A program made the position numbers and the translations under genes. From Terebella lapidaria (Eukaryota; Annelida; Polychaeta; Terebellida; Terebellidae), in contig OX424560.1 in the NCBI GenBank assembly GCA_949152475.1, positions 42,300,719-42,364,718 on the forward strand: a DNA stretch of 64,000 nucleotides, written 5' to 3'. The notes beneath the pieces are model-generated. The model was not told the origin of the DNA, searched no databases, and saw nothing but the letters and a program-made list of their open reading frames with translations. How positions within the stretch are numbered: position 1 is the first letter of the stretch; the number at the start of each line of letters is the position of its first letter. Shown here one piece after another: positions 31,231-62,964 of this stretch.

Positions 31231-31799
31231 ACATGTTCTGTAAGGGTCAGGTGGGTGGAGAACATGTTATGTAAGGGTCGGGTTTGTGGAGAACATGTTC
31301 TGTAAGGGTCGGGTGTGTGGGGAACATGTTCCGTAAGGGTCGGGTGGGTGGAGAACATGTTCTGTAAGGGTCGGGTGTGTGGGGAACATGTTCTGTAAGG
31401 GTCAAGTGTGTGGAGGACATGTTCTGTAAGGGTCGGGTGGGTGGGGAACATGTTCTGTAAGGGTCGGGTGTGTGGGGAACATGTTCTGTGAGGGTCGGGT
31501 GTGTGGGGAACATGTTCTGTGAGGGTCGGGTGTGTGGGGAACATGTTCTGTAAGGGTTGGGTGTGTGGGGAACATGTTCTGTAAGGGTCGAGTGGGTGGG
31601 GAACATGTTCTGTAAGGGTCGGGTGTGTGGGGAACATGTTATGTAAGGGTCGGGTGTGTGGAGAACATGTTCTGTAAGGGTCGGGTGTGTGGGGAAAATG
31701 TTCTGTAAGGGTCGGGTATGTGGGGAACATGTTCTGTAAGGGTCGGGTGTGTGTGGAACATGTTCTGTAAGGGTCGGGTGGGTGGGGAATATGTTCTGT

Positions 31800-34700: not shown

Positions 34701-37600
34701 GTAAGGGTCTGGTGTGTGGGGAACATGGTCTGTAAGGGTCGGGTGTGTGGAGGACATGTTCTGTAATGGTCGGGTGTGTGGAGAAAATGTTCTGTGAGGG
34801 CCGGGTGTGTGGGGAACATGTTCTGTAAGGGTTGGATATGTGGGGAACATGTTCTGTAAGGGTCGGGTGTGTGGAGAACATGTTCTGTAAGGGTTGGGTG
34901 TGTGGAGAACATGTTCTGTGAGGGTTGGGTGTGTGGGGAACATGTTCTGTAAGGGTTGGGTATGTGGGGAACATGTTCTGTAAGGGTTGGGTGTGTACAG
35001 AACATGGAGGAGATGTTCTGTAAGGGTCGGGTGGGTGGGGAACATGTTCTGTAAGGGTCGGGTGTGTGGAGAACATGTTCTGTAAGGGTCGGGTGTGTGG
35101 GGAACATGTTCTGTAAGGGTCGAGTGTGTGGAGGACATGTTCTGTAAGGGTCGGGTGTGTGGAGGACATGTTCTGTAAGGGTCGGGTGGGTGGGGAACAT
35201 GTTCTGTAAGGGTCGGGTGTGTGGAGAGCATGTTCTGTAAGGGTCGGGTGGGTGGGGAACATGTTCTGTGAGGGTCGGGTGTGGGAGAAACATGTTCTGT
35301 AAGGGTCAGGTGTGTGGAGAACATGTTCTGTAAGGGTCGGGTGGGTGGGGAACATGTTCTGTAAGGGTCGGGTGTGTGGGGAACATGTTATGTAACGGTC
35401 GGGTGTGTGGAAAACATGTTATGTAAGGGTCGGGTGTGTGGGGAACATGTTCTGTGAGAGTCGGGTGTGTGGGGAACATGTTCTGTAAGGGTCGGGTGTG
35501 TGTAGAACATGTTCTGTAAGGGTCGGGTGGGTGGGGAACATGTTCTGTAAGGGTCTGGTATGTGGGGAACATGTTATGTAAGGGTCTGGTGTGTGGGGAA
35601 CATGGTCTGTAAGGGTCGGGTGTGTGGAGGACATGTTCTGTAATGGTCGGGTGTGTGGAGAAAATGTTCTGTGAGGGCCGGGTGTGTGGGGAACATGTTC
35701 TGTAAGGGTTGGGTATGTGGGGAACATGTTCTGTAAGGGTCGGGTGTGTGGAGAACATGTTCTGTAAGGGTTGGGTGTGTGGAGAACATGTTCTGTGAGG
35801 GTTGGGTGTGTGGGGAACATGTTCTGTAAGGGTTGGGTATGTGGGGAACATGTTCTGTAAGGGTTGGGTGTGTGGAGAACATGTTCTGTAAGGGTCGTGT
35901 GTGTGGAGAACATGTTCTGTAAGGGTCGGGTGGGTGGAGGACATGTTATGTAAGGGTCGGGTGTGTGGAAAACATGTTCTGTAAGGGTCGGGTGTGTGGA
36001 GAACATGTTCTGTAAGGGTCGGGTGTGTGAGGAACATGTTATGTAAGGGTCGGGTGTGTGGAGAACATGTTATGTAAGGGTCGGCTGTGTGGAAAATATG
36101 TTCTGTAAGTGTCGGGTGTGTGGAGGACATGTTCTGTGAGGGTCGGGTGTGTGGAGGACATGTTCTGTAAGGGTCGGGTGTGTGGAGAACATGTTCTGTA
36201 AGGGTCGGGTGTGTGGGGAACATGTTCTGTAAGGGTCGGGTGTGTGGGGAACATGTTATGTAAGGGTCGGGTGTGTGGAGAACATGTTGTGTAAGGGTCA
36301 GGTGTGTGGGGAACATGTTATGTAAGGCTCGGGTGTGTGGAGAACATGTTCTGTAAGGGTCGGGTGTGTGGGGGACATGTTATGTAAGGGTCGGGTGTGT
36401 GGAGAACATGTTATGTAAGGGTCGGGTGGGTGGAGAACATGTTCTGTAAGGGTCGGGTGTGTGGAGAACATGTTCTGTAAGGGTTGGGTGTGTGGGGAAC
36501 ATGTTATGTAAGGGTCGGGTGTGTGGAGAACATGTTCTGTAAGGGTCGGGTGTGTGGGGAACATGTTATGTAAGGGTCGGGTGTGTGGAATACATGTTAT
36601 GTAAGGGTCGGGTGTGTGGGGAACATGTTATGTAAGGGTCGGGTGTGTGGAGAACATGTTATGTAAGTGTCGGGTGTGTGGAGGACATGTTATGTAAGGG
36701 TCGGGTGGGTGGGGAACATGTTCTGTAAGGGTCGGGTTTGTGGGGGACATGTTATGTAAGGGTCGGGTGGGTGGGGAACATGTTCTGTAAGGGTCGGGTG
36801 GGTGGGGAACATGTTATGTAAGGGTCGGGTGTGTGGGGAACATGTTTTGTAATGGTCGGGTGTGTGGAGAGCATGTTCTGTAAGGGTCGGGTGTGTGGGG
36901 AACATGTTCTGTAAGGGTCGGGTGGGTGGGGAACATGTTATGTAAGGGTCGGGTGTGTGGGGGACATGTTCTGTAAGGGTCGGGTGGGTGGGGAACATGT
37001 TATGTAAGGGTCGGGTGTGTGGGGGACATGTTCTGTAAGGGTCGGGTGGGTGGGGAACATGTTCTGTAAGGGTCGGGTGTGTGGAGAACATGTTATGTAA
37101 GGGTCGGGTGTGTGGAGAACATGTTATGTAATGGTCGGGTGTGTGGGGAACATGTTATGTAAGGGTCGGGTGTGTGGAGGACATGTTATGTAAGGGTCGG
37201 GTGTGTGGAATACATGTTATGTAAGGGTCGGGTGTGTGGAGAACATGTTATGTAAGGGTCGGGTGTGTGGGGAACATGTTATGTAAGGGTCGGGTGTGTG
37301 GAGGACATATTCTGTGAGGGTCGGGTGTGTGGAGAACATGTTATGTAAGGGTCGGGTGTGTGGGGAACATGTTATGTAAGGGTCGGGTGTGTGGAGAACA
37401 TGTTATGTAAGGGTCGGGTGTGTGGAGAACATGTTCTGTAAGGGTCGGGTGTTTAGGACATATTCTGTGAGTGTCGGGTGTGTGGAGAACATGTTATGTA
37501 AGGGTCGGGTGTGTGGGGAACATGTTATGTAAGGGTCGGGTGTGTGGAGAACATGTTATGTAAGGGTCGGGTGTGTGGGGAACATGTTATGTAAGGGTCG
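31800..37600 (+). repeat. Second copy of the 12.1-17.6 kb minisatellite block
   Basis: This is the partner of the block at 12.1-17.6 kb, with the same rare-unit order at shifts of 19,669 and then 20,081 bp. It differs by a rearranged section near 34.2-35.3 kb, where a stretch of about 0.6 kb appears again locally. One example is the GGTGTGGGAGAAACATG unit, near 34,402 and 35,281. Confidence 0.85.
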
Positions 37601-40600
37601 GGTGTGTGGAGAACATGTTATGTAAGGGTCGGGTGTGTGGGGAACATGTTATGTAAGGGTCGGGTGTGTGGAGGACATGTTCTGTAAGGGTCGGGTGTGT
37701 GGAGGACATGTTCTGTAAGGGTCGGGTGTGTGGAGGACATGTTCTGTAAGGGTCGGGTGTGTGGAGGACATGTTCTGTAAGGGTCGGGTGTGTGGAGGAC
37801 ATGTTATGTAAGGGTCGGGTGTGTGGAATACATGTTCTGTAAGGGTCGGGTGTGTGGAGAACATGTTCTGTAAGGGTCGGGTGTGTGGGGAACATGTTAT
37901 GTAAGGGTCGGGTGTGTGGAGAACATGTTCTGTAAGGGTTGGGGGTGTGGGGAACATGTTCTGTAAGGGTCGGGTGTGTGGAGAACATGTTATGTAAGGG
38001 TCGGGTGTGTGGAAAACATGTTCTGTAAGGGTCGGGTGTGTGGAGGACATGTTCTGTAAGGGTCGGGTGTGTGGGGAACATGTTATGTAAGGGTCGGGTG
38101 TGTGGAGAACATGTTATGTAAGTGTCGTGTGTGTGGGGAACATGTTATTTAAGGGTTGGGTGTGTGGGGAACATGTTCTGTAAGGGTCGGGTGTGTGGAG
38201 AACATGTTCTGTAAGGGTCGGGTGTGTGGGGAACATGTTATGTAAGGGTCGGGTGTGTGGGGAACATGTTCTGTAAGGATCGGTTGTGTGGAGTACATGT
38301 TATGTAAGGGTCGGGTGTGTGGAGAACATGTTCTGTAAGGGTCGGGTGTGTGGGGAACATGTTATGTAAGGGTCGGGTGTGTGGAGAACATGTTCTGTAA
38401 GGGTCGGGTGTGTGGAGAACATGTTCTGTAAGGGTCGGGTGCGTGGGGAACATGTTATGTAGGATCGGGTGTGTGGAGAACATGTTCTGTGAAGGCCGGG
38501 TGTGTGGAATACATATTCTGTAAGGGTCGGGTGTGTGGGGAACATGTTCTGTAAGTGTTGGGTGTGTGGGGAACATGTTATGTAAGGGTCGGGTGTGTGG
38601 AGAACATGTTCTGTAAGGGTCAGGTGTGTGGGGAACATGTTATGTAAGGGTCGGGTGTGTGGAGAACATGTTCTGTAAGTGTCGGGTGTGTGGGGAACAT
38701 GTTATTTAAGGGTCGGGTGTGTGGAGGAGATGTTCTGTAAGGGTCGGGTGGGTGGGGAACATGTTCTGTAAGGGTCGGGTGGGTGGGGAACATGTTATGT
38801 AAGGGTCGGGTGTGTGGGGAACATGTTATGTAAGGGTCGGGTGTGTGAAGAACATGTTCTGTAAGGGTCGGGTGTGTGGGGAACATGTTCTGTAAGGGTC
38901 GGGTGTGTTCAGGACATGTTCTGTAAGGGTCGGGTGTGTGGAGAACATGTTCTGTAAGGGTCGGGTGTGTGGGGGACATGTTCTGTAAGGGTCGAGTGTG
39001 TGGAAAACATGTTCTGTAAGGGTCGCGTGGGTGGGGAACATGTTCTGTAAGGGTCGGGTGTGTGGAGGACATGTTCTGTAAGGGTCGGGTGTGTGGGGAA
39101 CATGTTCTGTAAGGGTCGGGTGTGTGGAGAACATGTTCTGTAAGGGTCGCGCGGGTGGGGAACATGTTCTGTAAGGGTCGGGTGTGTGGAAAACATGTTC
39201 TGTAAGGGTCGGGTGGGTGGAGAACATGTTCTGTAATGGTCGTTTGTGTGGAGAACATGTTCTGTAAGGGTCGGGTGTGTGGAGGACATGTTCTGTAAGG
39301 GTCGGGTGTGTGGGGAACATGTTATGTAAGGGTCGGGTGTGTGGAGGACATGTTCTGTAAGGGTCGGGTGTGTGGGGAACATGTTATGTAATCGTCGGGT
39401 GTGTGGGGAACATGTTATGTAAGGGTCGGGTGTGTGGAGGACATGTTCTGTAAGGGTCGGGTGTGTGGGGAACATGTTATGTAAGGGTCGGGTGTGTGTT
39501 GAACATGTTATGTAAGGGTCGGGTGTGTGGAGAACATGTTATGTAAGGGTCGGGTGTGTGGAGGACATGTTCTGTAAGGGTCGGATGTGTGGAAAACATG
39601 TTCTGTAAGGGTCGGGTATGTGGGGAACGTGCTCTGTAAGGGTCGGGTGTGTGGGGAACATGTTCTGTAAGGGTCGGGTGTGTGGAGAACATGTTTTGTA
39701 AGGGTCGGGTGTGTGGAGAACATGTTCTGTAAGGGTCGGGTGTGTGGAAAACATGTTCTGTAAGGGTCGGGTATGTGGGGAACGTGTTCTGTAAGGGTCG
39801 GGTGTGTGGGGAACATGTTCTGTAAGGGTCGGGTGTGTGGAGAACATGTTATGTAAGGGTCGGGTGTGTGGAGAACATGTTCTGTAAGGGTCGGGTGTGT
39901 GGAGAACATGTTATGTAAGGGTCGGGTGTGTGGGGAACATGTTATGTAAGGGTCGGGTGTGTGGAGGACATGTTCTGTAAGGGTCGGTTGTGTGGGGAAC
40001 ATGTTCTGTAAGGGTCGGGTGTGTGGGGAACATGTTATGTAAGGGTCGGGTTTGTGGAGAACATGTTATGTAAGGGTCGGCTGTGTGGAGGACATGTTCT
40101 GTAAGGGTCGGGTGTGTGGGGAACATGTTCTGTAAGGGTCGGGTGTGTGGAGAACATGTTCTGTAAGGGTCGCGCGGGTGGGGAACATGTTCTGTAAGGG
40201 TCGGGTGTGTGGAAAACATGTTCTGTAAGGGTCGGGTGGGTGGAGAACATGTTCTGTAAAGGTCGGGTGTGTGGGGAACATGTTCTGTAAGGGTCGGGTG
40301 TGTGGAGGACATGTTCTGTAAGGGTCGGGTGTGTGGGGAACATGTTATGTAAGGGTCGGGTGTGTGGAGGACATGTTCTGTAAGGATCGGGTGTGTGGGG
40401 AACATGTTATGTAATCGTCGGGTGTGTGGGGAACATGTTATGTAAGGGTCGGGTGTGTGGAGGACATGTTCTGTAAGGGTCGGGTGTGTGGGGAACATGT
40501 TATGTAAGGGTCGGGTGTGTGGGGAACATGTTATGTAAGGGTCGGGTGTGTGTAGAACATGTTATGTAAGGGTCGGGTGTGTGGAGGACATGTTCTGTAA

Positions 40601-48849: not shown

Positions 48850-51800
48850 GTCAGAAACCATTAGTCGTCTAGTCTATTTTCATATTTGACATTAACACTT
48901 GAATCGATATCAGATTCTTGGAATGAAGAGCTTGTAAGATATATTACATGATATGACACAATGTCTTAGTGCTTGTTGTTTGGGGTCAGTCTACCCGGTG
49001 TTTATGGAATCACGCCACTGTCCTATTGCCGTTGCTAGGTGCCTGTCGTTAAGGAAGACCGTGTTAGCGGATCATCTGACGATGTTTTCAACCCGGAGGA
49101 GGACACTCACATACAGTCTCTGCAGAACACTTCTCGGGTAAACAGTCTACACAACAAACACTGCACGGGCTTGCTGTAATACGTTCCATGAATATTGTAG
49201 ATGTTTGAGAGGTTTGTAACGTCAGCTAACATGATGGTTTTCAGATCAGAGAAATGCAGACCATGCTGAATCGGACAAAAATATCAGAAAATGGAAAAAA
49301 AGTCAAGTGAGTTTGGTCATTAATGGAATACTCACCACAGCATTGACCTACATAATTAATATATTTGACATACCAGTTGAGTACATGATTTAAAATGGTA
49401 GAAATGATCAAAATTATTATGATAGATAGATAGATAGATAGTTTATTTTGCACATATCAACATTTACAGACGGAAACAGACAACATGATTACATGACATG
49501 TGATGGACACCAGAAAAAAACAATGTCTTATCTAGCTGGTGACCAATGTTACTAACATGAACGCATCTATATAGAATGAACAACAAAATGGAAACGAGAA
49601 CAGTGCATTATGAAAAATGTATCACAACGCCATGAAGTATGACACCCAGAAAAATATATCATGACACAGTATTATGGTAACAATGCTATGGACAATAGTG
49701 ATGAATTTGGTTATTGATTAGACAACATGTAATTTTTTAAAACACCTTTAAAACTGGGTAACGATCTAGCATTCTTGATATCAGAATTAAGATTTTGCCA
49801 CATTTTGCATGCTCTATTGTTCAACAACAAAGATCCATATCGCGTATTTGGTCTGCTGGCCGAGAATAAATTATTTCGAGTAGAATAGTAATTGATCTCT
49901 AAAGGTCTGAAGATAGAGTTAAATATGGGTGGTAGGTAATTATTCATATACTTATAAATCAAAATATACATTTTTATGTTGAAAATGCTGAGTAAATTTA
50001 ACACCCGGAGTTCCTGATACAATGTCGAAGTAGGGTAGCGCCTAGGCTTGTTGTAAAGGGCCTTTAAGATTCTGTTTTGCATAGTCTGTAAGGGTAATAT
50101 TGTACTTTTATTAGCCATGCCGAAAACCTCGATACCATACGATATTCTTGAGTATACAAAGGCAAAATATAACTGTTGCTTAACATTGTCAGGTATATGA
50201 TGTTTAATGTGATGAAATATTCCAGCAAACTACCAACCTATTACATAAGTCGTTGACATGAAGTCTCCATGACAACTTATCATCAATCAAGAGTCCCAAA
50301 TATTTAGTATGATCAGTTCTAGTAATTACATGTTTCCCCATCTCGAAGCTCGAATGACACTCGTGGTCATCGTTTTTGGCATGAAAAATCATGAAATTAG
50401 TTTTACCTAAATGTAAGGTCAGTTTGTTTGTGTCAAACCGTGTTTTTAGTGTTGTCAATGTGGATTTGCTTTTAGAAACTAAGTTTTTACAATTATTATC
50501 ATGTAGGAATAGGAATAAACAATAAGGAAACACTGGGGACCGCACTTTGAATATCGTTAACGTAAATTAAAAATAACAACGGACCTAACACCGAACCTTG
50601 TGGAACTCCCGTGGTAACCGGTAAACTATCAGAACTTACCCCATTTACATACATAACCTGACTTCTACCTGTTAAATAACTAGAAATCAAATCATAACAT
50701 TTACCCCTTATCCCATAATTTAGTAATCTATATTTAAGTATCTTATGGTTTACCGTATCGAAGGCCTTTTTTAGATCTAAGTATAAGCCCAATACATTTT
50801 GTCCTTTATCTAAATGGTTAATAATGTTGTTACTAATTTCTAATAATGCTTGTGTTGTAGAAAATCCTGTCCTAAATCCAAACTGGTAACTAAAAAACAA
50901 CTGGTTTTGTTTACAAAAATTTCTTATACGTTTTTCGATAAGTTTTTCTAACAGTTTGTTTAGACAAGAGAGTAAACTGATTGGACGGTAATTTTCAGGG
51001 AGATTTTTATCCCCCTTCTTGTACAAGGGAATAACTTTTGCTACTTTTAGTGCCGAGGGATATATTCCCATTACAAAACATAGATTAAAAATGTGCACAA
51101 GACTAGAACAGATATATTTGTCCACGGTTTTTATCAGAATATTAGAAATTTCATCTATTCCCGGTGATTTCCCAATCTTTAATTTAGCTATTTCATTCAT
51201 TACTTCAGTTTCATATGTAGGCTGTAAAAAGATACTTGTAGAGTTAGGTAATGACAAATATTGTTTGAAATCCGCACCGTTATCATGTGGGATTTCAGCT
51301 GCAAGGTTAGTTCCTACATTGGCGAAGTATTCATCGAAAGCATTTGAAAGCATTTTTTATCACATGCTATGAATTTATCTTAAACTACAAACAGTAGGAA
51401 CACACAGTGATTTCCGACAGTGTGATAACCTTTGCCGGAAACATCATGTTTGCACTATTTTTTTCTTCACATTTTTGCTTCACATGTCACATATTCACAT
51501 GCACTCATCTTGTTGTGAAACAACAATGAAAGCACGAGTGTTCTGTGACGTCACAATGAAACATCGCGCGATTCAGTCCTTGTAACTTATAACCATGCAA
51601 AAAACGTACAACCACTGTGACATCATAATACAAAGTACTTGACGACCGGGTGATATGCATTGTTTATACTGTTTCCTAGCAACACACATGTTCATGAGGG
51701 TTTTCTACTCAGTAGAACGGATCCTTGGGTACAATCAAAGATTGTAAGAAGTTCTTGCAATCTTTGGTACAATTTCACATTATTTTACAAGCGTTGGGTT

Positions 51801-54618
51801 GTTAAATATTTCAGAATCATAAATTCATAGCATGCGATAAAAACAAAACCTGTTTCGTGTGTTTTCCAGCATGCTGGAAAGATCGCGTTCGAACTGGCGA
51901 AAGAACACCAGAAAGCACTCGACCTTCGGTCTCGTGCTCTCTTGTATTCTTCCGCCAGTTCAAACTCGATCTTTCCAGCGTGCTGGAAAACACACTCACC
52001 TAGTTTTGTCATTATCTTTTGTTTTCATATCTCCATTGTGAGAAATCTGGTGTATTTCAGTCTTTTGTTTTTGTTTTTTATTGGCGATTAAGGAATTAAT
52101 AACTGACCAGGTTAGTTTGGATGTTGTATGATTCGACTGTAATAACCTGTAGTAGTACGATTCCTCAGCTTGTTACGTTATCATGGTCGTTATCATGGTC
52201 TGTATATGACCCTGACATTCCAGGAAGAACTGGTCCGTGTCATTCGTTGTAACCACAGGACCTTACATGTACTTCTACCGCGACCAGAAAAGCACGCAGC
52301 CCGTATGTATTCAAACGAAGGGCCACAAATTAAGACCTTTAAATGTACACAGTACATAGAAAAAAGAAATTAGAAAAAAAATTAATGAAAAATGTGAAGA
52401 ATGCCTGGTTTTGAAGATTGGAGTGCTTGTTTTCCCACCGACCACAGAAGCCGAACATGCCGGTGGGGAAGTACGAGGCACAGATAGATCTGCGGGGAGC
52501 GTGTGTCGGCCCGGCGCCTAAAGAGCTCACCAGCAAGAAAAACGTTATCATGGTCTGTATTTATGACACATCTTATAGAGGCTAAACTTAGCATCCAAAT
52601 ATTAATATTGTTGTTTATTTCGGGGGATTGACACATCAGAATTTATTTGTCAGATCACAAGCAAAAACATCCTGAAATATTTCAACTCGTCTGTTACAGC
52701 TTACGACCGCCTCAAATGTCCAGTTTTTGCTGCAGTCGGACGACAAAGCAAGGATGGACGACTTTGCTTCTACCATCAAAAACAACATCACTATGCTGGT
52801 TAGCTTAAATACTCAACTACCATGTAGAGATTGTAGAGTATTGGGACCATCAAAAACAACATCACTATGCTGGTCAGCTTAAATACTCAACTACCATGTA
52901 GAGATTGTAGAGTATTGGGACCATCAAAAACAACATTACTATGCTGGTCAGCTTAAATACTCAACTACCATGTAGAGATTGTAGAGTATTGGGACCATCA
53001 AAAACAACATCACTATGCTGGTTAGCTTAAAAACTCAACTACCATGTAGAGATTGTAGAGTATTGGGACCATCAAAAACAACATTACTATGCTGGTCAGC
53101 TTAAATACCCAACTACAATGTAGAGATTATAGAGTATTGGGACCATCAAAACAACATCACTGTGCTGGTTAGCTTAAATACTCAACTATCATGTAGAGAT
53201 TGTAGAGTATTGGGACCATCAAAAACAGCATCACTCTGCTGGTTAGCTTAAATACTCAACTACCATGTAGAGATTGTAGAGTATTGGGACCATCAAAAAC
53301 AACATCACTATGCTGGTCAGCTTGAATACTCAACTACCATGTAGAGATTGTAGAGTATTGGGACCATCAAAACAACATCACTGTGCTGGTTAGCTTAAAT
53401 ACTCAACTACCATGTAGAGATTGTAGAGTATTGGGACCATCAAAAACAGCATCACTCTGCTGGTTAGCTTAAATACTCAACTACCATGTAGAGATTGTAG
53501 AGTATTGGGACCATCAAAAACAACATTACTATGCTGGTCAGCTTAAATACTCAACTACCATGTAGAGATTGTAGAGTATTGGGACCATCAAAAACAACAT
53601 CACTATGCTGGTTAGCTTAAAAACTCAACTACCATGTAGAGATTGTAGAGTATTGGGACCATCAAAAACAACATTACTATGCTGGTCAGCTTAAATACCC
53701 AACTACAATGTAGAGATTATAGAGTATTGGGACCATCAAAACAACATCACTGTGCTGGTTAGCTTAAATACTCAACTACCATGTAGAGATTGTAGAGTAT
53801 TGGGACCATCAAAAACAACATCACTATGCTGGTCAGCTTAAATACTCAACTACCATGTAGAGATTGTGGAGTATTGGGACCATCAAAAACAACTTCACCA
53901 TGCTGGTCAGCTTAAATACTCAACTACCATGTAGAGATTGTAGAGTATTGGGACCATCAAAAACAGCATCACTATGCTGGTCAGCTTAAATACTCAACTA
54001 CCATGTAGAAATTGTAGAGTATTGGAAGAATGTTGTTACATTTTACCTGAGTCTGATTTGTGGTAACATCTGCTTGTTTCCATGGTTACAGGGCCACCGA
54101 CCCGATGCCCTGGAGCTGCCAGGACAAACAGACAGACCACCCGACAGCCCGAGTGTTGCCCGCGGCAACAAAACCAAACGCCCTTCCAAGCGTGAGAAGA
54201 GCTCCACATGTTAGTGGTGGTGGTGGTGGGGTAGGGTGGGGTAGGGTGGGGTTGATGGCGTATTTATTTGAGAGGATAGGGTGGGGGGGAGGGGGATATG
54301 GGAAGCAATCAGGAAGCACCGGAACTGATGTACCGAGTTTATAAGATATATGCGTACTGTAAATTTATCACAAAAGTATATTCACAGTGCAGTCAACAGA
54401 GTCTCTATACATTAAACTTGATATACTGAGCTGTGCTATGGAGACACACACATGTGAAGCTGTAGGAAGTTCGTTCGAGTTAAGTCGATGTTCTGTTGCA
54501 GTGGAACGTCCCACAACACCGGACGATGGGGAGAAAGGCAAGATCAAGGACTGGCTGCTCTACTGGTTGCTACGGCGACCCACGGCAGAAACCCTCAAGG
54601 AACGGGGGATTATCAAAG
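48781..54618 (+). CDS. Rho GTPase-activating protein, ARHGAP12/15/27 family (partial, 8 exons)
   Basis: Eight exons on the + strand join in compatible phases: 48781-48849, 49039-49137, 49245-49306, 52224-52302, 52448-52552, 52700-52798, 54092-54209 and 54502-54618. Together they encode a linker, a complete PH domain (RTKISENGKKVKKNWSVSF at its start, FLLQSDDKARMDDFASTIKN at its C-terminal helix), a basic linker (KRPSKREKSS) and the conserved lead-in to the RhoGAP domain (LLRRPTAETLKERGIIK). In ARHGAP12, 15 and 27 the same order occurs, with SH3/WW domains upstream in two of them and the catalytic arginine finger downstream. The family inactivates Rac/Cdc42-type GTPases at membranes recognised by the PH domain. 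Both ends are missing: the first exon starts at an acceptor without an ATG, and the last ends in phase 1 before the RhoGAP core. The three family members cannot be told apart from this part. Confidence 0.88.
49039..49137 (+). CDS. ARHGAP-family exon B (acidic linker)
   Basis: A 99-bp exon, phase 0 at both ends, with acceptor GCCGTTGCTAG and donor CGG|GTAAAC. It encodes 33 residues rich in Asp/Glu and Ser (DRVSGSSDDVFNPEED). It carries no catalytic motif and is probably a disordered linker ahead of the PH domain. It agrees in phase with exons A and C. Confidence 0.7.
49245..49306 (+). CDS. ARHGAP-family exon C (start of PH domain)
   Basis: A 62-bp exon, entering in phase 0 and leaving in phase 2, with acceptor GGTTTTCAG and donor AA|GTGAGT. 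It encodes 20 full codons ending RTKISENGKKV. The pattern N-x-TKI-x-ENGKK is the start of the PH domain in ARHGAP12/15/27. The split codon is completed by the first base of exon D, nearly 3 kb away. The intron between them carries the LINE, the MITE-like element and the palindrome. Confidence 0.85.
49421..49441. repeat. (GATA)n microsatellite at the LINE 3' end
   Basis: Five perfect GATA units, TATC on the LINE strand. They mark the 3' end of the minus-strand LINE next to host intron sequence, as short tandem tails do in CR1-like elements. Confidence 0.85.
49711..50118 (-). pseudogene. LINE RT C-terminal region
   Basis: A 135-codon open stretch ending in a stop near the LINE 3' end. It contains LQTMQNRILKALYNKPRRYP and a tail rich in Asn, Tyr and Leu (NNRACKMWQNLNSDIKNA). 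This type of sequence closes many Jockey/CR1 ORF2 proteins. A third frame relative to the RT core shows another frameshift upstream. About 270 bp of untranslated sequence follows before the GATA tail. Confidence 0.75.
50204..50545 (-). pseudogene. LINE reverse transcriptase, thumb region in a shifted frame
   Basis: The open stretch from about residue 10 onward continues the LINE after the catalytic box: FLHDNNCKNLVSKSKSTL, LTLHLGKTNFMIFHAKND and TKYLGLLIDDKLSWRLHV. The T-KYLG-x-x-ID-x-x-L-x-W motif is characteristic of the region after the FADD box in Jockey/CR1-type RTs. It overlaps the preceding RT frame by 47 bp because of a frameshift. Confidence 0.8.
50499..51353 (-). pseudogene. LINE reverse transcriptase, N-terminal two thirds
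   Basis: A 284-codon open stretch carrying RT blocks in order: KVIPLYKKGDKNLPENYRPI, LLEKLIEKRI, YQFGFRTGFSTTQAL, LYLDLKKAFDTVNH and [20 protein letters not shown]. The KAFD aspartate (first catalytic Asp) is intact. The frame then leaves the expected sequence before the FADD/YADD motif. The fragment is decayed and not expected to be active. Confidence 0.88.
51545..51554. promoter_or_regulatory. CRE-type palindrome GTGACGTCAC
   Basis: A perfect 10-bp palindrome containing TGACGTCA, the full CREB/ATF site. It lies within the MITE-like element. A second TGTGACATCA-like half site occurs near 51,617. Binding is not shown; a full site by chance in 64 kb is not impossible. Confidence 0.35.
51736..51766. 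repeat. 31-bp hairpin
   Basis: CAAAGATTGTAAGAA, one centre base, then TTCTTGCAATCTTTG. The 15-bp arms differ at one position, a G-U type pair. It lies inside the MITE-like element, and its length has nothing to do with the 31-bp minisatellite. Confidence 0.7.
51836..52016. repeat. 181-bp near-perfect palindrome (foldback/MITE-like)
   Basis: The sequence is self-complementary about 51,926. Arms of about 90 bp read GTGTGTTTTCCAGC(A/G)TGCTGG and inward to GCACTCGACC-TTC-GGTCTCGTGC. The inner 62 bp are almost identical between arms; the outer 25 bp are more diverged but keep GATAA...ACAAAAC at both ends. It contains a nested palindrome, TTCCAGCATGCTGGAA, in the left arm, with one change in the right. 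Short open stretches of 60-75 codons across it are products of the symmetry, not genes. It would fold into a long hairpin as RNA or single-stranded DNA. Confidence 0.85.
52017..52223. other. Intron sequence before exon D
   Basis: AT-rich intron between the palindrome and the acceptor at 52,223. It contains ATCATGGTCGTTATCATGGTC (a 12-bp direct repeat) and no recognisable gene. Confidence 0.5.
52224..52302 (+). CDS. ARHGAP-family exon D (PH domain strands 1-2)
   Basis: A 79-bp exon between acceptor CATTCCAG and donor CCC|GTATGT. Its first base completes the codon left by exon C, then it reads KNWSVSFVVTTGPYMYFYRD. This is the first beta-hairpin of a PH domain (KNW-x-x-S-x-V-V in the vertebrate members). 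It ends in phase 0 and is separated from exon E by a 145-bp intron. Confidence 0.88.
52448..52552 (+). CDS. ARHGAP-family exon E (PH domain middle)
   Basis: A 105-bp exon, phase 0 at both ends, with acceptor CCGACCACAG and donor ATG|GTCTGT. It encodes 35 residues including IDLRGACV and KELTSKKNVIM. These match the vertebrate family pattern (VDL-x-GA then S-x-KNV-F/L), the central strands of the PH domain. Confidence 0.88.
52700..52798 (+). CDS. ARHGAP-family exon F (end of PH domain)
   Basis: A 99-bp exon, phase 0 at both ends, with acceptor TCTGTTACAG and donor CTG|GTTAGC. It encodes 33 residues: LTTASNVQFLLQSDD and then the C-terminal PH helix. The usual Trp of the helix is a Met or Phe here. 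Its last 27 bases (ACC ATC ... ATG CTG) and the donor are the first part of the 74-bp tandem array that follows, so this exon's end is the likely source of that array. Confidence 0.9.
52772..54026 (+). repeat. 74-bp tandem array seeded by the end of exon F, 17 copies
   Basis: Units begin at 52,772 and then every 74 bp (73 bp where one A is missing, at 53,142, 53,363 and 53,732); the last begins at 53,953. Each unit is 27 bp identical or nearly identical to the end of exon F (ACCATCAAAAACAACATCAC, then TATGCTG), a splice-donor-like GT(T/C)AGC, and about 41 bp of intron (CTTAAATACTCAACTACC through TAGAGATTGTAGAGTATTGG). The first unit is the exon itself. Copies differ at few sites. The order of variants at 52,920-53,214 recurs at 53,510-53,804, so blocks of units were themselves duplicated. 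The array fills nearly the whole intron between exons F and G. Confidence 0.95.
54092..54209 (+). CDS. ARHGAP-family exon G (linker between PH and RhoGAP)
   Basis: A 118-bp exon, entering in phase 0 and leaving in phase 1, with acceptor CATGGTTACAG and donor CAT|GTTAGT. It encodes 39 residues, rich in Pro/Asp and then basic (RGNKTKRPSKREKSS). This is typical of the disordered linker between the PH and RhoGAP domains. A G-run quadruplex motif lies 19 bp past its donor. Confidence 0.8.
54228..54251 (+). repeat. G-quadruplex motif after the exon G donor
   Basis: Five G-runs separated by loops of one or two bases: GGGG-TA-GGG-T-GGGG-TA-GGG-T-GGGG. This is a canonical short-loop G-quadruplex motif on the sense strand, 19 bp downstream of the donor of exon G. 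A second G-rich stretch follows at 54,280-54,298. Intronic G-runs near donors can affect splicing; that role is inferred. Confidence 0.75.
54252..54501. other. Intron between exons G and H
   Basis: Intron sequence with a G-rich start and a standard acceptor (GATGTTCTGTTGCAG) at its end. No other feature recognised. Confidence 0.6.
54502..54618 (+). CDS. ARHGAP-family exon H (lead-in to RhoGAP domain)
   Basis: A 117-bp exon, phase 1 in and phase 1 out, with acceptor TTCTGTTGCAG and donor AAAG|GTGACT. It encodes ERPTTPDDGEKGKIKDWLLY and then WLLRRPTAETLKERGIIK. The RRPT-x-x-x-L-x-E-x-G-x-I/L pattern directly precedes the RhoGAP core in ARHGAP12/15/27 (there followed by D-Q-V/I-FG), and the phase-1 split is compatible with that Asp. 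The next exon is not in the window. The last 7 bases and the donor are copied again at 55,734-55,740. Confidence 0.88.
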
Positions 54619-55180
54619 GTGACTGGCGAGATGACGTTTTGTCAAGTTGTACCGATACATCTTTGTGTTATGTGGCTGCAAACACTAGAGAGATGTCGCC
54701 TTAAGAAAGTCTTGTAACATGCAGGGCTCCCGGTAGGATTTTTTTCGAAGGAGTACCGTACCCCATGGGTCAAATTACAAGGGGTAAATTTTGAAATGAA
54801 GGGGTAATTTTCAAAAAATGGATGTACAGTAATTTTTTTTTTTTCAGTCAAAGTGACAGCTTCCATTATCATTGATTATGTTTACAAATCTCGCATATCC
54901 TCCAGGTTTTTTCTCAAAATTTCAGCACAATGCTAATAGTCAACGATAGCCCTTGCCCACAGTAGCTTTCTGAAGGTCTTCTATTGCAGAGAACGCACTT
55001 GTTTTGCTCTCGAATAGTTCGTCGATTCATTGTCGAGTCATGTTGAAGAAACGAAAGTGGGGAAATATTTAAATTTATATTCGCAAGGGGGCGCACACAT
55101 AGGCTTTCGATGTTGCAGCCATTCGCATGGGGGCGCTGCAGTTTATTGTGCTCGAATTTTGATGACGTGTACCACAACTT
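54612..55180 (+). repeat. 569-bp host segment, copy 1
   Basis: Starts with the last 7 bases of exon H plus its donor and runs through intron sequence to GTACCACAACTT. It recurs without any difference I can see at 55,734-56,302 (shift 1,122). This means a very recent duplication, or two alleles joined in the assembly. Confidence 0.92.
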
Positions 55181-55186
55181 CTACCA

Positions 55187-55736
55187 CAATCTTTCTTTGC
55201 ACAGTCGTTATCGTCCCTTCAGGGTCCCCTCCTGCCGGGTCTCTCTTCCCTGCTTGGACAGGGAGTCCCGGCCGGTTCTTCGGCTGCATCTTCGTCGCAG
55301 GGAGAGCTTGCTCCCCCTGCTGGCAAGAAGTCGAAATCTTCTAAGAAGAAGGTTTCAGTTCTTGCCAAGGCGAAAGCAGCCAAGGAACCGCACTCCACCT
55401 TCGTCGTCCCTCAGTCGGGGCCGATCGAGGTGGAGGGGTCCGTCGTCTCTTCCCCGGGGCCTTCCAAGAAGAGGAAGCGTGCTTCCTCTAAGCGCCGTGG
55501 TGCTGAGACCACATCGATTTTCGATGTGGCTCAGGCTTCGTCCGACCTTTCGGTGGGCGACGATCAGGCTTCGGGCTTCGATCGGCGGAGCGTCTTGGAT
55601 GGCTCATTCGGGTCCTCGGTCTCGAGGTTCGAGGGGGGAGAGTTCCCTTTGTTTGGAGGTGAGGCTCTCGATCGTTCGTGCGATCGGGAGTCTTCACTTG
55701 GCGGTCGTGCTCCTGGTCCTCGATCAGGGCACGATC
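55187..55736 (+). mobile_element. Internal fragment of a DIRS element (gag-like region)
   Basis: A 550-bp stretch that matches 58,232-58,781 of the full DIRS element at a shift of 3,045. I see two differing bases. It contains neither end of the element. It sits exactly between the two copies of the 569-bp host segment. It shares ATC with the host at its right junction, and a 7-bp ACCACAA repeat lies at its left junction (55,171 and 55,183). These marks suggest repair by template switching rather than normal DIRS integration. The source could be the full copy in this window or a close relative. It is a fossil fragment. Confidence 0.9.
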
Positions 55737-56302
55737 AAAGGTGACTGGCGAGATGACGTTTTGTCAAGTTGTACCGATACATCTTTGTGTTATGTGGCTG
55801 CAAACACTAGAGAGATGTCGCCTTAAGAAAGTCTTGTAACATGCAGGGCTCCCGGTAGGATTTTTTTCGAAGGAGTACCGTACCCCATGGGTCAAATTAC
55901 AAGGGGTAAATTTTGAAATGAAGGGGTAATTTTCAAAAAATGGATGTACAGTAATTTTTTTTTTTTCAGTCAAAGTGACAGCTTCCATTATCATTGATTA
56001 TGTTTACAAATCTCGCATATCCTCCAGGTTTTTTCTCAAAATTTCAGCACAATGCTAATAGTCAACGATAGCCCTTGCCCACAGTAGCTTTCTGAAGGTC
56101 TTCTATTGCAGAGAACGCACTTGTTTTGCTCTCGAATAGTTCGTCGATTCATTGTCGAGTCATGTTGAAGAAACGAAAGTGGGGAAATATTTAAATTTAT
56201 ATTCGCAAGGGGGCGCACACATAGGCTTTCGATGTTGCAGCCATTCGCATGGGGGCGCTGCAGTTTATTGTGCTCGAATTTTGATGACGTGTACCACAAC
56301 TT
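55734..56302 (+). repeat. 569-bp host segment, copy 2
   Basis: Second copy of the host segment at 54,612-55,180, with no difference seen by eye. It begins with ATCAAAG|GTGACT and so carries a second copy of the exon H splice donor. After 56,302 the sequence differs from that after copy 1, as expected if copy 2 continues the original intron. Confidence 0.92.
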
Positions 56303-56403
56303 ATTCGCCAGCGAGTGCATTGCGCATGCATCTCTTTGGCGTAAATTGACATTGTTTGATTCTAGAACTTCGTTTTTTGAGCTAATGAATCGATGTCATT
56401 GTT
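56303..56403. other. Intron sequence, nothing recognised
   Basis: About 100 bp between the host duplication and the hairpin/(GTCC)n repeat. No gene or repeat recognised. Confidence 0.5.
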
Positions 56404-57448: not shown

Positions 57449-57859
57449 ACCGCCATTTTTGCTTGGCAGCTTTGGATTTTGGTTCCCGGTGAATTCGTAG
57501 AATTTAGTCTGCAAACTAGACTTTTGCGATATATTCTTACGGAATTTCACCTGCCACGTTCATAGACATCGTTTTGTGTCTATTTGGATAAGTATTGGTC
57601 GATAGTTTGTTACTTGCTAGATCGTCACCGATTGGTATAGCCAGTTCACCCTATTATCGTCCATCCGTCGTACTTGATAGTGTACTTGTTGTTTACATCT
57701 ATCAATAGTTCTACGTTAATTTTCTACTGTATATATTGTGTATACGTATACTGTAGTTTATATATTCGTAGTCCTCTTAGGGTTCTTTTTCAGCGCGGTC
57801 TCAGGTTTGCGTATTTTGCCCGCCCTGTTACTGTGTGTGGTTAGTTCCCTTGTGTGATC
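57449..57859 (+). other. DIRS 5' untranslated region
   Basis: AT-rich sequence between the left terminal repeat and the gag-like start, with TATA-rich stretches (CTGTATATATTGTGTATACG, about 57,726-57,745). No gene recognised. Confidence 0.55.
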
Positions 57860-58969
57860 ATGACTTCACAATCCTCCCTTGGTACCGGTGCCATGGACGA
57901 ACGTCCATGCCCGAAGTGTCTGGTCAATACCCTCCGAGGAGGGGAGAAACACAGTTTGTGTTTCGACTGTTTGGACCATGGCCCGGTATCTATGGAGGAT
58001 TTGAGGTGTGATCTGTGTCGTTTCTGGCGTCCCTCTTCCTTCGTGCAGGCGACTGCAAAGTATTCCGAAGCCTCGTTGGCTCGTCGGGATGCTTTGAGGC
58101 TTGCGGAAGCTTCGGCTCCGCAAGTCCGCCAGTCGCCCATGGAGGTGGAGACTCCGCCTGTGACGGCACAGATTGCGTCCGGTGTTAGCCAGCCCCTGGG
58201 GCTAACACAGGACATGGTCAACGCGGCTGTGCAATCTTTCTTTGCACAGTCGTTATCGTCCCTTCAGGGTCCCCTCCTGCCGGGTCTCTCTTCCCTGCTT
58301 GGACAGGGAGTCCCGGCCGGTTCTTCGGCTGCCCCTTCGTCGCAGGGAGAGCTTGCTCCCCCTGCTGGCAAGAAGTCGAAATCTTCTAAGAAGAAGGTTT
58401 CAGTTCTTGCCAAGGCGAAAGCAGCCAAGGAACCGCACTCCACCTTCGTCGTCCCTCAGTCGGGGCCGATCGAGGTGGAGGGGTCCGTCGTCTCTTCCCC
58501 GGGGCCTTCCAAGAAGAGGAAGCGTGCTTCCTCTAAGCGCCGTGGTGCTGAGACCACATCGATTTTCGATGTGGCTCAGGCTTCGTCCGACCTTTCGGTG
58601 GGCGACGATCAGGCTTCGGGCTTCGATCGGCGGAGCGTCTTGGATGGCTCATTCGGGTCCTCGGTCTCGAGGTTCGAGGGGGGAGAGTTCCCTTTGTTTG
58701 GAGGTGAGGCTCTCGATCGTTCGTGCGATCGGGAGTCTTCACTTGGCGGTCGTGCTCCTGGTCCTCGATCAGGGCACGATCGGGCGGGTGGTGCTGGGGT
58801 CGTTCCTCAGGGCCACTCAAGTCCTGTGTACGCGGATGTAAGTCGCCGGACGGGCGCGATCGCTGAGCAGGCATTCCCTCGCCCGTCCTTTGATGTACCC
58901 TTGGGGTCGTCGAGGTCTTCGATCGGACCTGTGAGGTCCAACGATCGGGGGGGGTCGAGTGGAAGCTGA
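57860..58969 (+). CDS. DIRS gag-like region, first part
   Basis: An open stretch starting at ATG 57,860. It begins MTSQSSLGTG and has a cysteine-rich N-terminus with CPKC (residues 17-20), CFDC (about 34-37) and CDLC (about 50-53), probably a zinc-binding region. A low-complexity Ser/Pro/Lys stretch follows (KKSKSSKKK, SKKRKRASSK, a possible nuclear signal). DIRS gag proteins are poorly conserved, so the call rests on position between the left terminal repeat and the RT. Part of this region (58,232-58,781) has a second copy at 55,187-55,736. Confidence 0.7.
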   Translation: MTSQSSLGTGAMDERPCPKCLVNTLRGGEKHSLCFDCLDHGPVSMEDLRCDLCRFWRPSSFVQATAKYSEASLARRDALRLAEASAPQVRQSPMEVETPPVTAQIASGVSQPLGLTQDMVNAAVQSFFAQSLSSLQGPLLPGLSSLLGQGVPAGSSAAPSSQGELAPPAGKKSKSSKKKVSVLAKAKAAKEPHSTFVVPQSGPIEVEGSVVSSPGPSKKRKRASSKRRGAETTSIFDVAQASSDLSVGDDQASGFDRRSVLDGSFGSSVSRFEGGEFPLFGGEALDRSCDRESSLGGRAPGPRSGHDRAGGAGVVPQGHSSPVYADVSRRTGAIAEQAFPRPSFDVPLGSSRSSIGPVRSNDRGGSSGS

Positions 58970-60100
58970 TCAGGAGTCGTCCTCCTCGGAGGATGAGACT
59001 TCCGATCAGGCCGGGGGTTCTAACTTCCGGTGGGCTTTGGAGTCGGTCGCAAGGCGAATGGACTTGCCGATCGATGCTCCAGGGCCCTCACGGGGAACCG
59101 GTAGGTTCGCGTCGGCGCCAGTTCGTCGGCCGATCCGGCTCCCTGTGGCTCCCGCGTTGGTCAAGTCCTTCGACAAGATCAACAAGGGAGTTACGGCTAA
59201 GAAGGATGTGGCTCGTACGGAGTCGACATTCCCGACTAGCCGTGTTCGACCTGAGTCGATCGACACCTATCGGACTGTAGAGTCCGAGGGTGGACATCAG
59301 ACTTCCGTCCCGGTCGAAGACCCTAACCTTCACCTGCTTTCCCGGAAGCAGGGTACGGTCTGGTCAGCTTATGTGAAAAAGGCTCGTCTTTCTCACTGGC
59401 AGACGCTGTCTCATCAATTGATGGGGCAGCTCTCGTTGACAGATCACCTGACCACTTTGGTTCAGGAGTTTGTGGACGAGGCGGATCTGGAGGAGGGGAG
59501 TCGCGCCAACATTCATGCAGCACTCGGCGTCTTGGCCGGAGTGGTCCATGCTGCTGAGCGTGACAGTGCGCACCTGGGCGCACAATTGGATCTCACCATG
59601 CGTGATGCCGATCTCCGTCTGCTTGACGTGTCCGCTACGGACGTCGCTGAGCTACGTGGGAGGCCGCTTTTCTCAGGCTATACCTACGCCAACCTCTCTC
59701 GATCGGATATTTCCGTCATGCGGGAACATCTCCGGGATGAGGCTATGGCCAAGGCTTTGCTTGGGAAGTCGGCGGGGTCTGGGACAGGCAAGAAGACCAA
59801 GGGTCAGAAGCCTGCCCAACCTCAGGCACCACATGCACCCGCTTCTACGCAGCCGCCCTTTCGTGGGGCGCAGCCTCCCCCTCCCCAGGGGGATGGCAAG
59901 CGCGGAGGCAAAGGGGGTGGACGCTTCAAGGGCAAAGGGAAGCTTCTGGTAAGAAGTGACTCGTTGCGGGAAAGCGTAGGCTCTGTGGAAGGTTCAGTTC
60001 TGTCGGAATTCGATCTTCCACAACCTGGTCCAGTCGGGGGACGCCTGGCTCAGTTCGTCCAGAACTGGAGCGATCTGGCGTCGTCAGACAATTCAGTCGT
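58970..60100 (+). mobile_element. DIRS gag-like region, second part
   Basis: Coding-type sequence between the first gag-like stretch and the RT. It includes a helical section with TVWSAYVKKARLSHWQTLSH (about 59,355-59,415) and LGVLAGVVHAAERDSAHLGA, which resembles the capsid-like part of DIRS and related YR elements. A Gly/Lys/Arg-rich section follows (GKRGGKGGGRFKGKGK, about 59,895-59,942), likely for nucleic acid binding. No enzyme motif is seen. Confidence 0.65.
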
Positions 60101-60169
60101 GGCATGGGTGAAGTTCGGTCTCACCTTCAGATGGGAGGCTGGAAAACCACCGATCAGACCCAAAGCGTG

Positions 60170-61000
60170 GTTCTTCCCTGTGCCCGGCGATCGGGAAAAG
60201 TTTCAGCTTCTGCAGCACGAGGTGCAGCAGTTGCTAGAGAAACGTGCGATCGAGGTGGTCAAGGACGAGAGAGGATTCTATTCTCTCATCTTCCTAGTGC
60301 CGAAAAAGACAGGCGGGTGGCGTCCCGTTTTCGATCTGTCAAACCTCAACAAATTCCTGATCATACCCAGGTTCAAGATGGAGTCGGCGCTTTCCGTCCA
60401 GAAAGCTCTGTCCAAGGGGAAGTGGGCAGTCAGTATCGACGTCAAGGACGCGTACTTACATGTGCCAATACACCCAGCCGATCGGCGATACCTCAAGTTC
60501 GCCTTCGAAGGTTCGGTGTATCAGTTCAGGTACTTCCTTTTGGAGTAGCCACCGCCCCTTACGTGTTCACCCGTATCGTAAGGACGATGGCAGCCAGGTT
60601 TCGATCGGTTGGAATTCAATTCCACCATTATATCGACGATTGGTTAATCATAGCCGACTCCCCGTCTCAGGCTATAGAGCAATCCGGGTTCGTCCTCAGG
60701 TTGGCGACCAGCCTCGGCTGGATCCCCAATTGGGCGAAGTCTCATCTGTCCCCGACACAGAGGTTCGAGTATGTCGGGGTAGATTACGATCTAGATCGAG
60801 GAGTAGCTCTTCCTCCGCGGAAGAGAGTTCTCAAAGCGATTGCGGCGATGGAGGTCGCGCTGACGCAGTCGTCGATCACAGCTCGACAGTTTCTGTCCAT
60901 CATCGGTCTGTTGGCGTCGATGGAGAAACAGGTGCCGTTCGGCAGGTGCTTCCTCAGACCCATTCAATGGTGTCTAGCGTTGCAATGGCGGATCCTCACC
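60170..61000 (+). mobile_element. DIRS reverse transcriptase region
   Basis: Contains RT blocks typical of DIRS: LVPKKTGGWRPVFDLSNLN, WAVSIDVKDAYLHVPIHP (first catalytic Asp), VPFGVATAPYVFTR, and the YIDD catalytic box (about 60,630) followed by WLIIADS. In DIRS elements RT and RNase H form one polyprotein, and the recombinase frame commonly overlaps it. The recombinase-side frame is also open here from about 60,460. Treated as a fossil; activity is not claimed. Confidence 0.9.
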
Positions 61001-61109
61001 GATCGACTAGACCAAGTCGTATCGGTGGACGATCGTGCTCGGGAAGCAATGCATTGGTGGCGGGACCATCGGAATCTTTTCCGAGGGATGCCACTGGCGG
61101 AGTATCTGC

Positions 61110-61480
61110 CCGATCGGACCTTCTTCACCGATGCGTCAGAATTGGCTTGGGGAGCTCATATGGACGAGCACGAACTCTCTGCTGTGTGGAACACGAACGA
61201 GAGGGCGTTGCACATCAATGTCCTAGAGCTGCGAGCGGTGAGACGTGCGTTCGAGATCTGGGGGCCGCAGAGTCCCCCAGGGACGAAGTGGTTGGTCTTC
61301 ACAGACAACAGCACAGTAGTGGCGCACATAAACAAACAAGGTGGAACTCGGTCGAGTCAGCTTTGTTTGGAGGCCGAGTGTCTGATCAGGTTTGCCTTCA
61401 AGTACCGTCTGTTTATCAGGGCGAGGCACCTGCCGGGTCACAGGAATGTCCTAGCGGACGCTCTGTCGAGACCGGACAAG
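61110..61480 (+). mobile_element. DIRS RNase H region
   Basis: Shows the RNase H acidic residues in order: FFTDASELAWGAHM (Asp), HINVLELRAV (Glu), VFTDNSTVVAHIN (Asp), then ARHLPGHRNVLADALSR (His and Asp near the C-terminus). It directly follows the RT region, as in DIRS and other RT-bearing elements, and removes the RNA strand during copying. About 400 bp after it encodes a family-typical stretch (PNIDLFATSRNHKLPVYFSP) of unknown role. Confidence 0.9.
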
Positions 61481-61959
61481 ATCATAGGCACGGAGTGGAG
61501 TCTGCATCCGGGGGTGTTTCGGCGCGTTTGTCAGGCGTTCGGGACACCGAACATAGACCTGTTCGCAACCTCTCGGAATCACAAGCTCCCGGTCTACTTC
61601 TCACCTCTGCCAGAGAGCGAGGCACTGGCTGTGGACGCGATGTCTCAGTCGTGGGACGGGATGTTCGGGTATGCGTACCCGCCAACTCGGTTCCTAACAG
61701 AAGTGCTGCACAAAGTAGCCAGGTCTCAGTGCGAGATTCTGTTGGTGGCGCCATGCTGGCTGATGCAGGCGTGGTTCCCCCTGCTACTGTCCCTCCTGAT
61801 CGATGTACCACGGGTTCTCCCGATCGAGGACAGGTTGCTGAAGCAACCGGGGCGGGATATATTTCACGATTCCGTCCACGTGCTCAAATTACACGTGTGG
61901 AGGCTATCGAGCGATCCTTCCAGGAGGCAGGATTTTCTCAGCAGGTGTCCGTACATCTC

Positions 61960-62964
61960 GCGAGAAAGAATAGGAGATCCTCCTCTAAAACGTATGAGGC
62001 TAAATGGAGAGTTTTCGTACGTTGGTGTAACGGAAGGCGCATTGATCCGCTCTCTGCCCCTCTGAATGCAGTGCTAGACTTTCTCTGCTATCTCTTTGAT
62101 AGGCTTAATTTGAAGCCTACTACGATCGAGGGATACAGGTCCATGCTGGGCCCTGTATTCCGTGCTAGGGGGATCGATTTAACTAATAATCGTATCCTTG
62201 CTGATCTCTTGGCGTCCTTTAGGACGCAAAGGCCACGCGGAGTTCCTACTCTACCGGATTGGGACATGGCTTTTGTGCTATATTGTCTTACTAAAGCACC
62301 TTGGGAGCCTCTCAAGGAAGTTTCCTTGCAGAGGTTAACTCTTAAGACTTTCCTGCTAGTTATGCTAGCAAGTGGTCGAAGACGCTCAGATGTCGCGGCG
62401 ATCGACGTATCGCGAGTCGCATTTGGCGCGGATGGGTCCGTTTCCTTATACCCAGTACGTGATTTTATGCCTAAAACACGTGCTGCAGTTGAGGGCGGGA
62501 AAGCGTTCTCCCCTATCGTAATTCCGTCACTGGGCGGTTACGTAGGACGGAATGAGCCGGACGCTCTATTGTGTCCGGTAAGAGCGCTGAAAATCTACAT
62601 CGATCGTACCAGATCGATCAGGAAAGATCGCAAGCGATTATTTATTTCCTATCAGCCTAATAGGGCTACGGATATCTCCACAGCTACACTATCCCGATGG
62701 GTGAAGGTTGTAGTGAGGACTGTCTATGCGGAATCAGGTGCTGACGATCGAGTCACTTACAAAATATCGTCCCACCAAATCCGACACATCTCGATGTCTT
62801 TGGCGGCCAGGTCGAATATTCCGTTGGAATATATCGTGAGGGCTGGAATGTGGACTAATTCTACGACATTCATCGGGTTCTATCTGTCCAATGCTGCCGA
62901 ACTTCAGGACCAGTCGTCCAGATTTAGACTGGGTCCGCTGGTCGTAGCGCAAGCTGTTGTTTGA
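61960..62964 (+). CDS. DIRS tyrosine recombinase domain
   Basis: This is the C-terminal part of a long frame ending at the stop at 62,962-62,964. It has an N-terminal SAM-like helical part (TYEAKWRVFVRWCNGRRIDP) and the catalytic set of tyrosine recombinases: Arg in ASGRRRSDVAAI, His-x-x-Arg in SSHQIRHISM, a Trp at the second His position in AGMWTNS, and the Tyr nucleophile in TFIGFYL. In DIRS this enzyme integrates the circular DNA intermediate. All key residues are visible. The frame overlaps the RT-RNase H region upstream, a layout usual for the family. Confidence 0.92.
   Translation, partial: ARKNRRSSSKTYEAKWRVFVRWCNGRRIDPLSAPLNAVLDFLCYLFDRLNLKPTTIEGYRSMLGPVFRARGIDLTNNRILADLLASFRTQRPRGVPTLPDWDMAFVLYCLTKAPWEPLKEVSLQRLTLKTFLLVMLASGRRRSDVAAIDVSRVAFGADGSVSLYPVRDFMPKTRAAVEGGKAFSPIVIPSLGGYVGRNEPDALLCPVRALKIYIDRTRSIRKDRKRLFISYQPNRATDISTATLSRWVKVVVRTVYAESGADDRVTYKISSHQIRHISMSLAARSNIPLEYIVRAGMWTNSTTFIGFYLSNAAELQDQSSRFRLGPLVVAQAVV

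Follow-up and report, generated by a model that had tools for sequence, protein, structure and literature searches.

A 74-bp mirage-type minisatellite across the 3' end of a PH-domain exon in the annelid Terebella lapidaria

The DNA analysed here (the window) is a stretch of 64,000 nucleotides from Terebella lapidaria (assembly GCA_949152475.1, contig OX424560.1, positions 42,300,719 to 42,364,718 of the forward strand), and its subject is a minisatellite at 52772-54026, on the + strand, that begins inside a coding exon. Window positions are used throughout. Three exons on the same strand lead up to the array: exon D (52224-52302, donor GTATGT) and exon E (52448-52552, 105 nt), both assigned to a PH domain, and exon F (52700-52798, 99 nt, phase 0 at both ends), which encodes the end of that domain and whose last 27 nt are also the exonic part of the first repeat unit. 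Beyond the array lie exon G (54092-54209, 118 nt), to which exon F is presumably joined in normal splicing, and exon H (54502-54618, 117 nt), again on the + strand. All five were recognised by their open frames, with the PH match as further evidence for D, E and F and a protein search of the assembly for all five; when joined, they form a single open frame.

Compared with solved structures, the protein encoded by exons D-H is closest, among the five relatives listed, to ARHGAP9 (2p0d, E 1.9e-10) and then to ARHGAP27 (3pp2, E 1.2e-8), and its Pfam PH score of 25.0 falls just below the cut-off of 25.1. A WW match lies 15 kb upstream of the window and two RhoGAP matches lie 1 kb and 18 kb downstream of it, all on the + strand. 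This order of WW, PH and RhoGAP is what we take to be the make-up of the ARHGAP9/12/27 subfamily, and the host looks like an ARHGAP9/12/27-like WW-PH-RhoGAP gene. Their order and strand suggest that all of them belong to one transcript. Searched against the assembly, the exon D-H protein gave seven rows, namely the five exons described here and two others at E 0.6 and 2.7.

The array consists of 17 head-to-tail units (Tandem Repeats Finder score 2249, far above chance expectation), of which 14 are 74 bp long and three (units 6, 9 and 14) are 73 bp, the shorter ones missing one A from their exon-derived part. Pairwise identity between units averages 95% (range 89-100%). Unit 1 starts 27 nt upstream of the end of the in-frame PH exon F and is made up of the 3' end of that exon (27 nt) and the start of the intron (47 nt); the later units copy both parts, and the array runs from the exon edge into the intron downstream of exon F. 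The 5' splice site of exon F, GTTAGC at 52799-52804 on the + strand, is accordingly donor 1 of 17 and is judged authentic by frame, not by RNA. In every unit the GT at +1 and +2 and the AGC at +4 to +6 are intact, with T at +3 in eight units and C in nine, giving the motif GT(T/C)AGC. An earlier, sequence-only reading of the window had described a 74-bp array of 17 units whose first unit is the last 27 bases of exon F plus the donor and whose other units keep that exon end and donor; apart from the three shorter units, our analysis agrees with this anatomy throughout. The array is a real, clean and large minisatellite of the type called mirages in amphioxus, and its novelty had been overstated.

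When one unit was used to query the 761.6-Mb assembly, 17 matches came back, all inside the array; in this search very common words were skipped and only the best candidates were scored. Three observations support the proposal that a coding exon edge seeded the repeat: the unit was found only at the array locus, unit 1 lies in frame where a PH exon ends, and six of the nine repeated residues are covered by the Pfam PH match (the 27 nt encode residues 86-94 of the protein and the match ends at 91). The reverse case, in which a satellite invaded the exon, was considered and rejected: the unit was found only at the array locus and the exon lies within a recognisable PH domain. The test has a limit, since the repeated residues are 86-94 while the Pfam match extends only to 91 and the solved relatives only to 83-90; the five alignments end at residues 83, 87, 88, 90 and 90 (exon F ends at 94), and those of ARHGAP9 and ARHGAP27, at 83 and 87, cover none and two of the nine repeated residues. 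We suggest that a 74-bp segment across the 3' edge of the PH-domain exon was first duplicated in tandem, and that exchange or slippage in multi-unit blocks would have expanded it to 17 copies in the intron.

The internal order of the array records such blocks. Its 17 units represent 12 sequence types in a non-random order; units 3-6 (52920-53214, + strand) recur eight units downstream as units 11-14 (53510-53804, + strand), with units 3-5 identical to units 11-13 and a single base separating unit 6 from unit 14. The identity between units at lag 8 was equalled in 5 of 2000 shuffles, and the other lags were unremarkable. Seven bases are private to one unit, and five of these fall in units 15-17 (binomial p 0.003); when the last base, perhaps ancestral, is set aside, the figure is four of six (p 0.011). 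Given the lag-8 block identity and the concentration of private bases in units 15-17, turnover has proceeded in blocks and has left out the 3' edge. At the ends of the array, microhomology amounts to at most 1 bp. Selection for the donor copies was sought through the variability of columns over the 17 units and no sign of it was found, because variable columns are spread evenly over the exon-derived (6/27) and intron-derived (10/47) parts (Fisher p = 1.0) and an intact GT is likely by chance: the probability that the GT is not hit is 0.61, and that no more than one of the nine donor columns varies is 0.37.

The copied donors are very alike. Over nine nucleotides, 8 of the 17 (the real one included) are identical to the real donor and the other nine differ at +3 only, and the real site CTG|GTTAGC and its variant CTG|GTCAGC share a score of 4.84 (scores use approximate textbook donor frequencies). 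In this the claim of 17 nearly equal 5' splice sites holds for the 9-mers, but the donor is mediocre: four other donors of the gene in view score 2.95 to 8.08, and within 48.3-55 kb, 37 of the 345 GTs outside the array equal or exceed its score. As the array donors are equal but mediocre, the choice between them must come from context.

The frame of the host gene is informative here. When exon F is joined on to exons G and H, donor 1 alone leaves an open frame in register. Donor 2 causes a frameshift, without a stop inside the exons tested, and donors 3-17 (15 of 17) all meet one common stop codon, 64-1097 nt before the F/G junction; even donors 4, 6, 11 and 16, which lengthen the exon by a multiple of three, run into this same stop. 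Exon F would grow from 99 nt to 173 and 247 nt with the nearest competing donors and to 1280 nt with the farthest. Under the usual 50-nt rule, the products of donors 3-17 are expected to trigger decay. We suggest that U1 may occupy many units, and that exon definition would pair donor 1 with the acceptor 99 nt upstream, so that productive messenger RNA probably comes from unit 1. Use of donors 3-17 would bring the stop codon and probably decay, and use of donor 2 the frameshift; because wrong donors bring a stop or a frameshift, any leak would only reduce output. The sequence-only reading pictured a cell faced with 17 nearly equal donors; that these would confuse it is not supported by the sequence. 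Only donor 1 is open in register, mirages reportedly splice undisturbed, and multiple U1 occupancy is reported to alter 5' site choice with efficiency uncompromised unless the sites are very close (PMC5389562). Most likely, splicing stays at unit 1 and the array has no consequence.

Arrays of this kind have been described before. In amphioxus, 'mirages' are a named class of tandem arrays across an exon edge, known from Adh3, the globins BflGb6 and BflGb9, TnC and PGBD5, and they are reported not to interfere with regular splicing (PMC3087553, PMC3902484); the second of these papers added the PGBD5 mirage and cites troponin C, and it suggests undisturbed PGBD5 splicing by analogy rather than showing it. 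Mirage length is reported to vary between haplotypes, with homogenisation inside the cluster and not at its boundaries (the ends of the BflGb6 cluster are excluded from it), and mirages have been put forward as a source of new introns (PMC3087553). The Terebella array resembles them, as far as those accounts go, in unit size (10-72 bp in Adh3), in its copied splice signals and in turnover with distinct end units; its five of seven private bases in units 15-17 recall the BflGb6 cluster ends. Its units span exon and intron across one boundary (placed from the reading frame and the splice signals), GT(T/C)AGC is kept in 17 of 17, and the lag-8 block and the private bases of units 15-17 indicate internal homogenisation beside distinct end units. 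On this basis the array shows the anatomical features of a mirage that were compared. It differs in its host gene and in its 17 copies, where BflGb6 haplotypes are reported with 6 and 3 and PGBD5 with at most 7. The mirages described come from cephalochordates. The mitochondrial COX1 of the assembly analysed here has 7 AGA, 0 AGG and 19 ATA codons and, judged by conserved positions, is best translated with AGA=Ser, ATA=Met and AAA=Lys, a code that would suit amphioxus as well as many other invertebrates. Neither a GFP-family match, whose lack speaks against amphioxus, nor a mollusc-type haemocyanin match was found, in searches whose controls likewise matched nowhere. The minisatellite of human IFI6 (6-16), another array of units bearing repeated splice donors, is said to have a unit shorter than 74 bp. 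Two of its downstream units are reportedly used as donors (PMC4526556). With these precedents in print, the view that few such cases are known is not supported.

Two further systems are related more loosely. Intron gain by tandem duplication has been reported for a potato RdRp gene, where a duplication crossing the boundary gave a new intron, and for 24-bp repeats in fission yeast (PMC4974935). The likeness is that an intron-exon boundary, or a segment bearing splice signals, was duplicated; the difference is that new introns are reported there, whereas the Terebella array, as far as can be told from its sequence, merely extends an existing one. Intron 6 of TERT carries 38-bp repeats that act by RNA pairing more than 1 kb from the junctions (PMC3948165). 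It too is an intronic minisatellite within a coding gene; the Terebella array adjoins the junction, and matching pairing was not found in its gene context of ~34.5 kb.

Could the array nevertheless do something? Downstream donors might be used appreciably, the early-stop variants of exon F degraded, and copy number would then tune RhoGAP expression. The intact donors in all 17 units, the stop that 15 of them would create 64 nt or more ahead of the following junction, and the reported use of IFI6 repeat donors are all consistent with such a dosage device; we consider it unlikely, as the known mirages reportedly leave regular splicing undisturbed, constraint on the donors was not detected, and the exon would reach up to 1280 nt. 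Regulation of splicing by pairing of the repeat with other parts of the pre-mRNA, for which TERT shows that intronic tandem repeats can act in this way, is scarcely credible: over the ~34.5 kb from 48.2 kb on, exact complementarity to a unit extends to 9 nt at most, against at least 10 nt in 161 of 200 shuffled units, folding of one and two units gave z-scores of -0.16 and 0.26, and inverted repeats of at least 12 were not found in 52.6-54.2 kb. An assembly artefact that inflated or collapsed the copy number has precedents, in that the draft amphioxus genome reportedly contained a wrongly assembled mirage (PMC3087553) and the PGBD5 repeat number is reported to differ between two assemblies. 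With 12 sequence types in non-random order, in a contig of 44 Mb, we regard such an error as very improbable for this array.

The unit junctions invite a different thought, and the sequence-only reading had imagined pseudo-exons of about 38 bases between a TTGTAG and the next donor. On paper they are possible, but their length is 36 nt in 13 of 16 junctions (the AG is lost in one of these) and 35 nt in three, and in 12 of the 16 an AG and a GT flank 12 in-frame, stop-free codons. They would also require either skipping of units or an intron of 38 nt from unit donor to next acceptor, a length constant in 16 of 16 and shorter than animal spliceosomes normally remove. The acceptor is poor in pyrimidines as well, with 10 of 21 positions before the AG in the four unit junctions scored against 11-15 in five real acceptors, a modest gap to the weakest. 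Inclusion of the 36-nt segments (12 residues, SIGTIKNNITML and variants) in frame, now or later, would lengthen the end of the PH domain and make the array an intron-gain intermediate as modelled for the amphioxus globins (PMC3087553), with the boundary-crossing duplication of potato (PMC4974935) as a parallel; in view of the short intron and the weak acceptors, we think this highly unlikely. The intronic units hold missense versions of the exon piece, and 3 of 16 carry a 1-nt deletion in it. Unit 1 belongs to the coding exon and to the array alike, so that unequal exchange or conversion between it and the intronic units could conceivably rewrite the coding exon end, which would make that end a mutation hotspot and the 36-nt pseudo-exons a stock for new exons or introns; this is an improbable extension of our reading, although the possible editing of the coding exon end by such exchange deserves to be borne in mind.

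We therefore favour the view that the array is an effectively neutral mirage-type minisatellite with decoy copies of a 5' splice site, expanded in blocks to 17 units, and that splicing is still at unit 1; we would give this a probability of roughly 0.8. Several points weigh against it. Seven later units have a 9-mer donor identical to that of unit 1, and in experiments with duplicated donors the intron-proximal site can be favoured. The use of donor 1 is predicted from the frame. The solved ARHGAP relatives hardly extend to the repeated residues, the lag-8 signal is one among 12 lags tested, and the comparison is based on a single assembly with one copy of the locus. The splice signals of mirages could act as cryptic sites (PMC3087553), and downstream donor use is reported for IFI6.

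The genomic background is relevant to how unusual the array is. In 20 preset stretches of 10 kb (200 kb), we found 54 merged arrays with periods of 15-200, of which 20 have at least three copies, 10 at least five and four at least ten; the ten arrays of at least five copies are spread over 6 of the 20 stretches, with four in one stretch. Scaled to the genome, this gives ~30,000-38,000 arrays of at least five copies (the lower figure for periods of at least 30). On the assumption of 200,000-400,000 exon edges, seeding at random would by itself put some 600-1500 arrays on exon edges before selection, an order of magnitude from a small and clustered sample. Because the genome is so crowded with minisatellites, a single exon-edge array in the window is not remarkable. 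The 20 kb after the window, probably within the same gene, hold arrays that include 70 bp x 16, 23 bp x 35 and 33 bp x 30.

Other repeats and elements lie nearby. A 31-bp satellite of ~1559 copies occupies 3-48197 of the window, between the upstream WW match and the PH exons, probably in an intron of the same gene. A 23-bp minisatellite (L046:7386-7616) extends as far as the acceptor of a RhoGAP exon that starts at about 7623, probably also in this gene; by eye, its units are without exon sequence, and a 23-bp array elsewhere (L045:2767-3572) looks related to it. The stretch after exon H (~54620-55200) is repeated about 1.1 kb on (55740-56330), the two copies flanking a GC-rich insert, as if a large duplication had arisen around an insertion. 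At 57845-62964 on the + strand, long frames resemble an element with reverse transcriptase/RNase H and, at its end, a recombinase-like part, which we take to be DIRS-like, and the open frames at 49711-51356 on the - strand, upstream of exon D, are presumably reverse-transcriptase-like. Besides the mitochondrial contig (C438), a small contig (C417:44633-46450) carries a second COX1 match in two pieces, perhaps a nuclear copy.

On its own the array changes no view. It is a clean and large case of a known class, with 17 copies against the up to 7 reported in the mirages whose copy numbers were compared, and the frame of its host makes each wrong donor diagnosable. We suggest that it offers a natural test of two questions: how the spliceosome settles on a single donor among 17 that are almost equal, and whether minisatellites that span exon boundaries contribute to intron gain.

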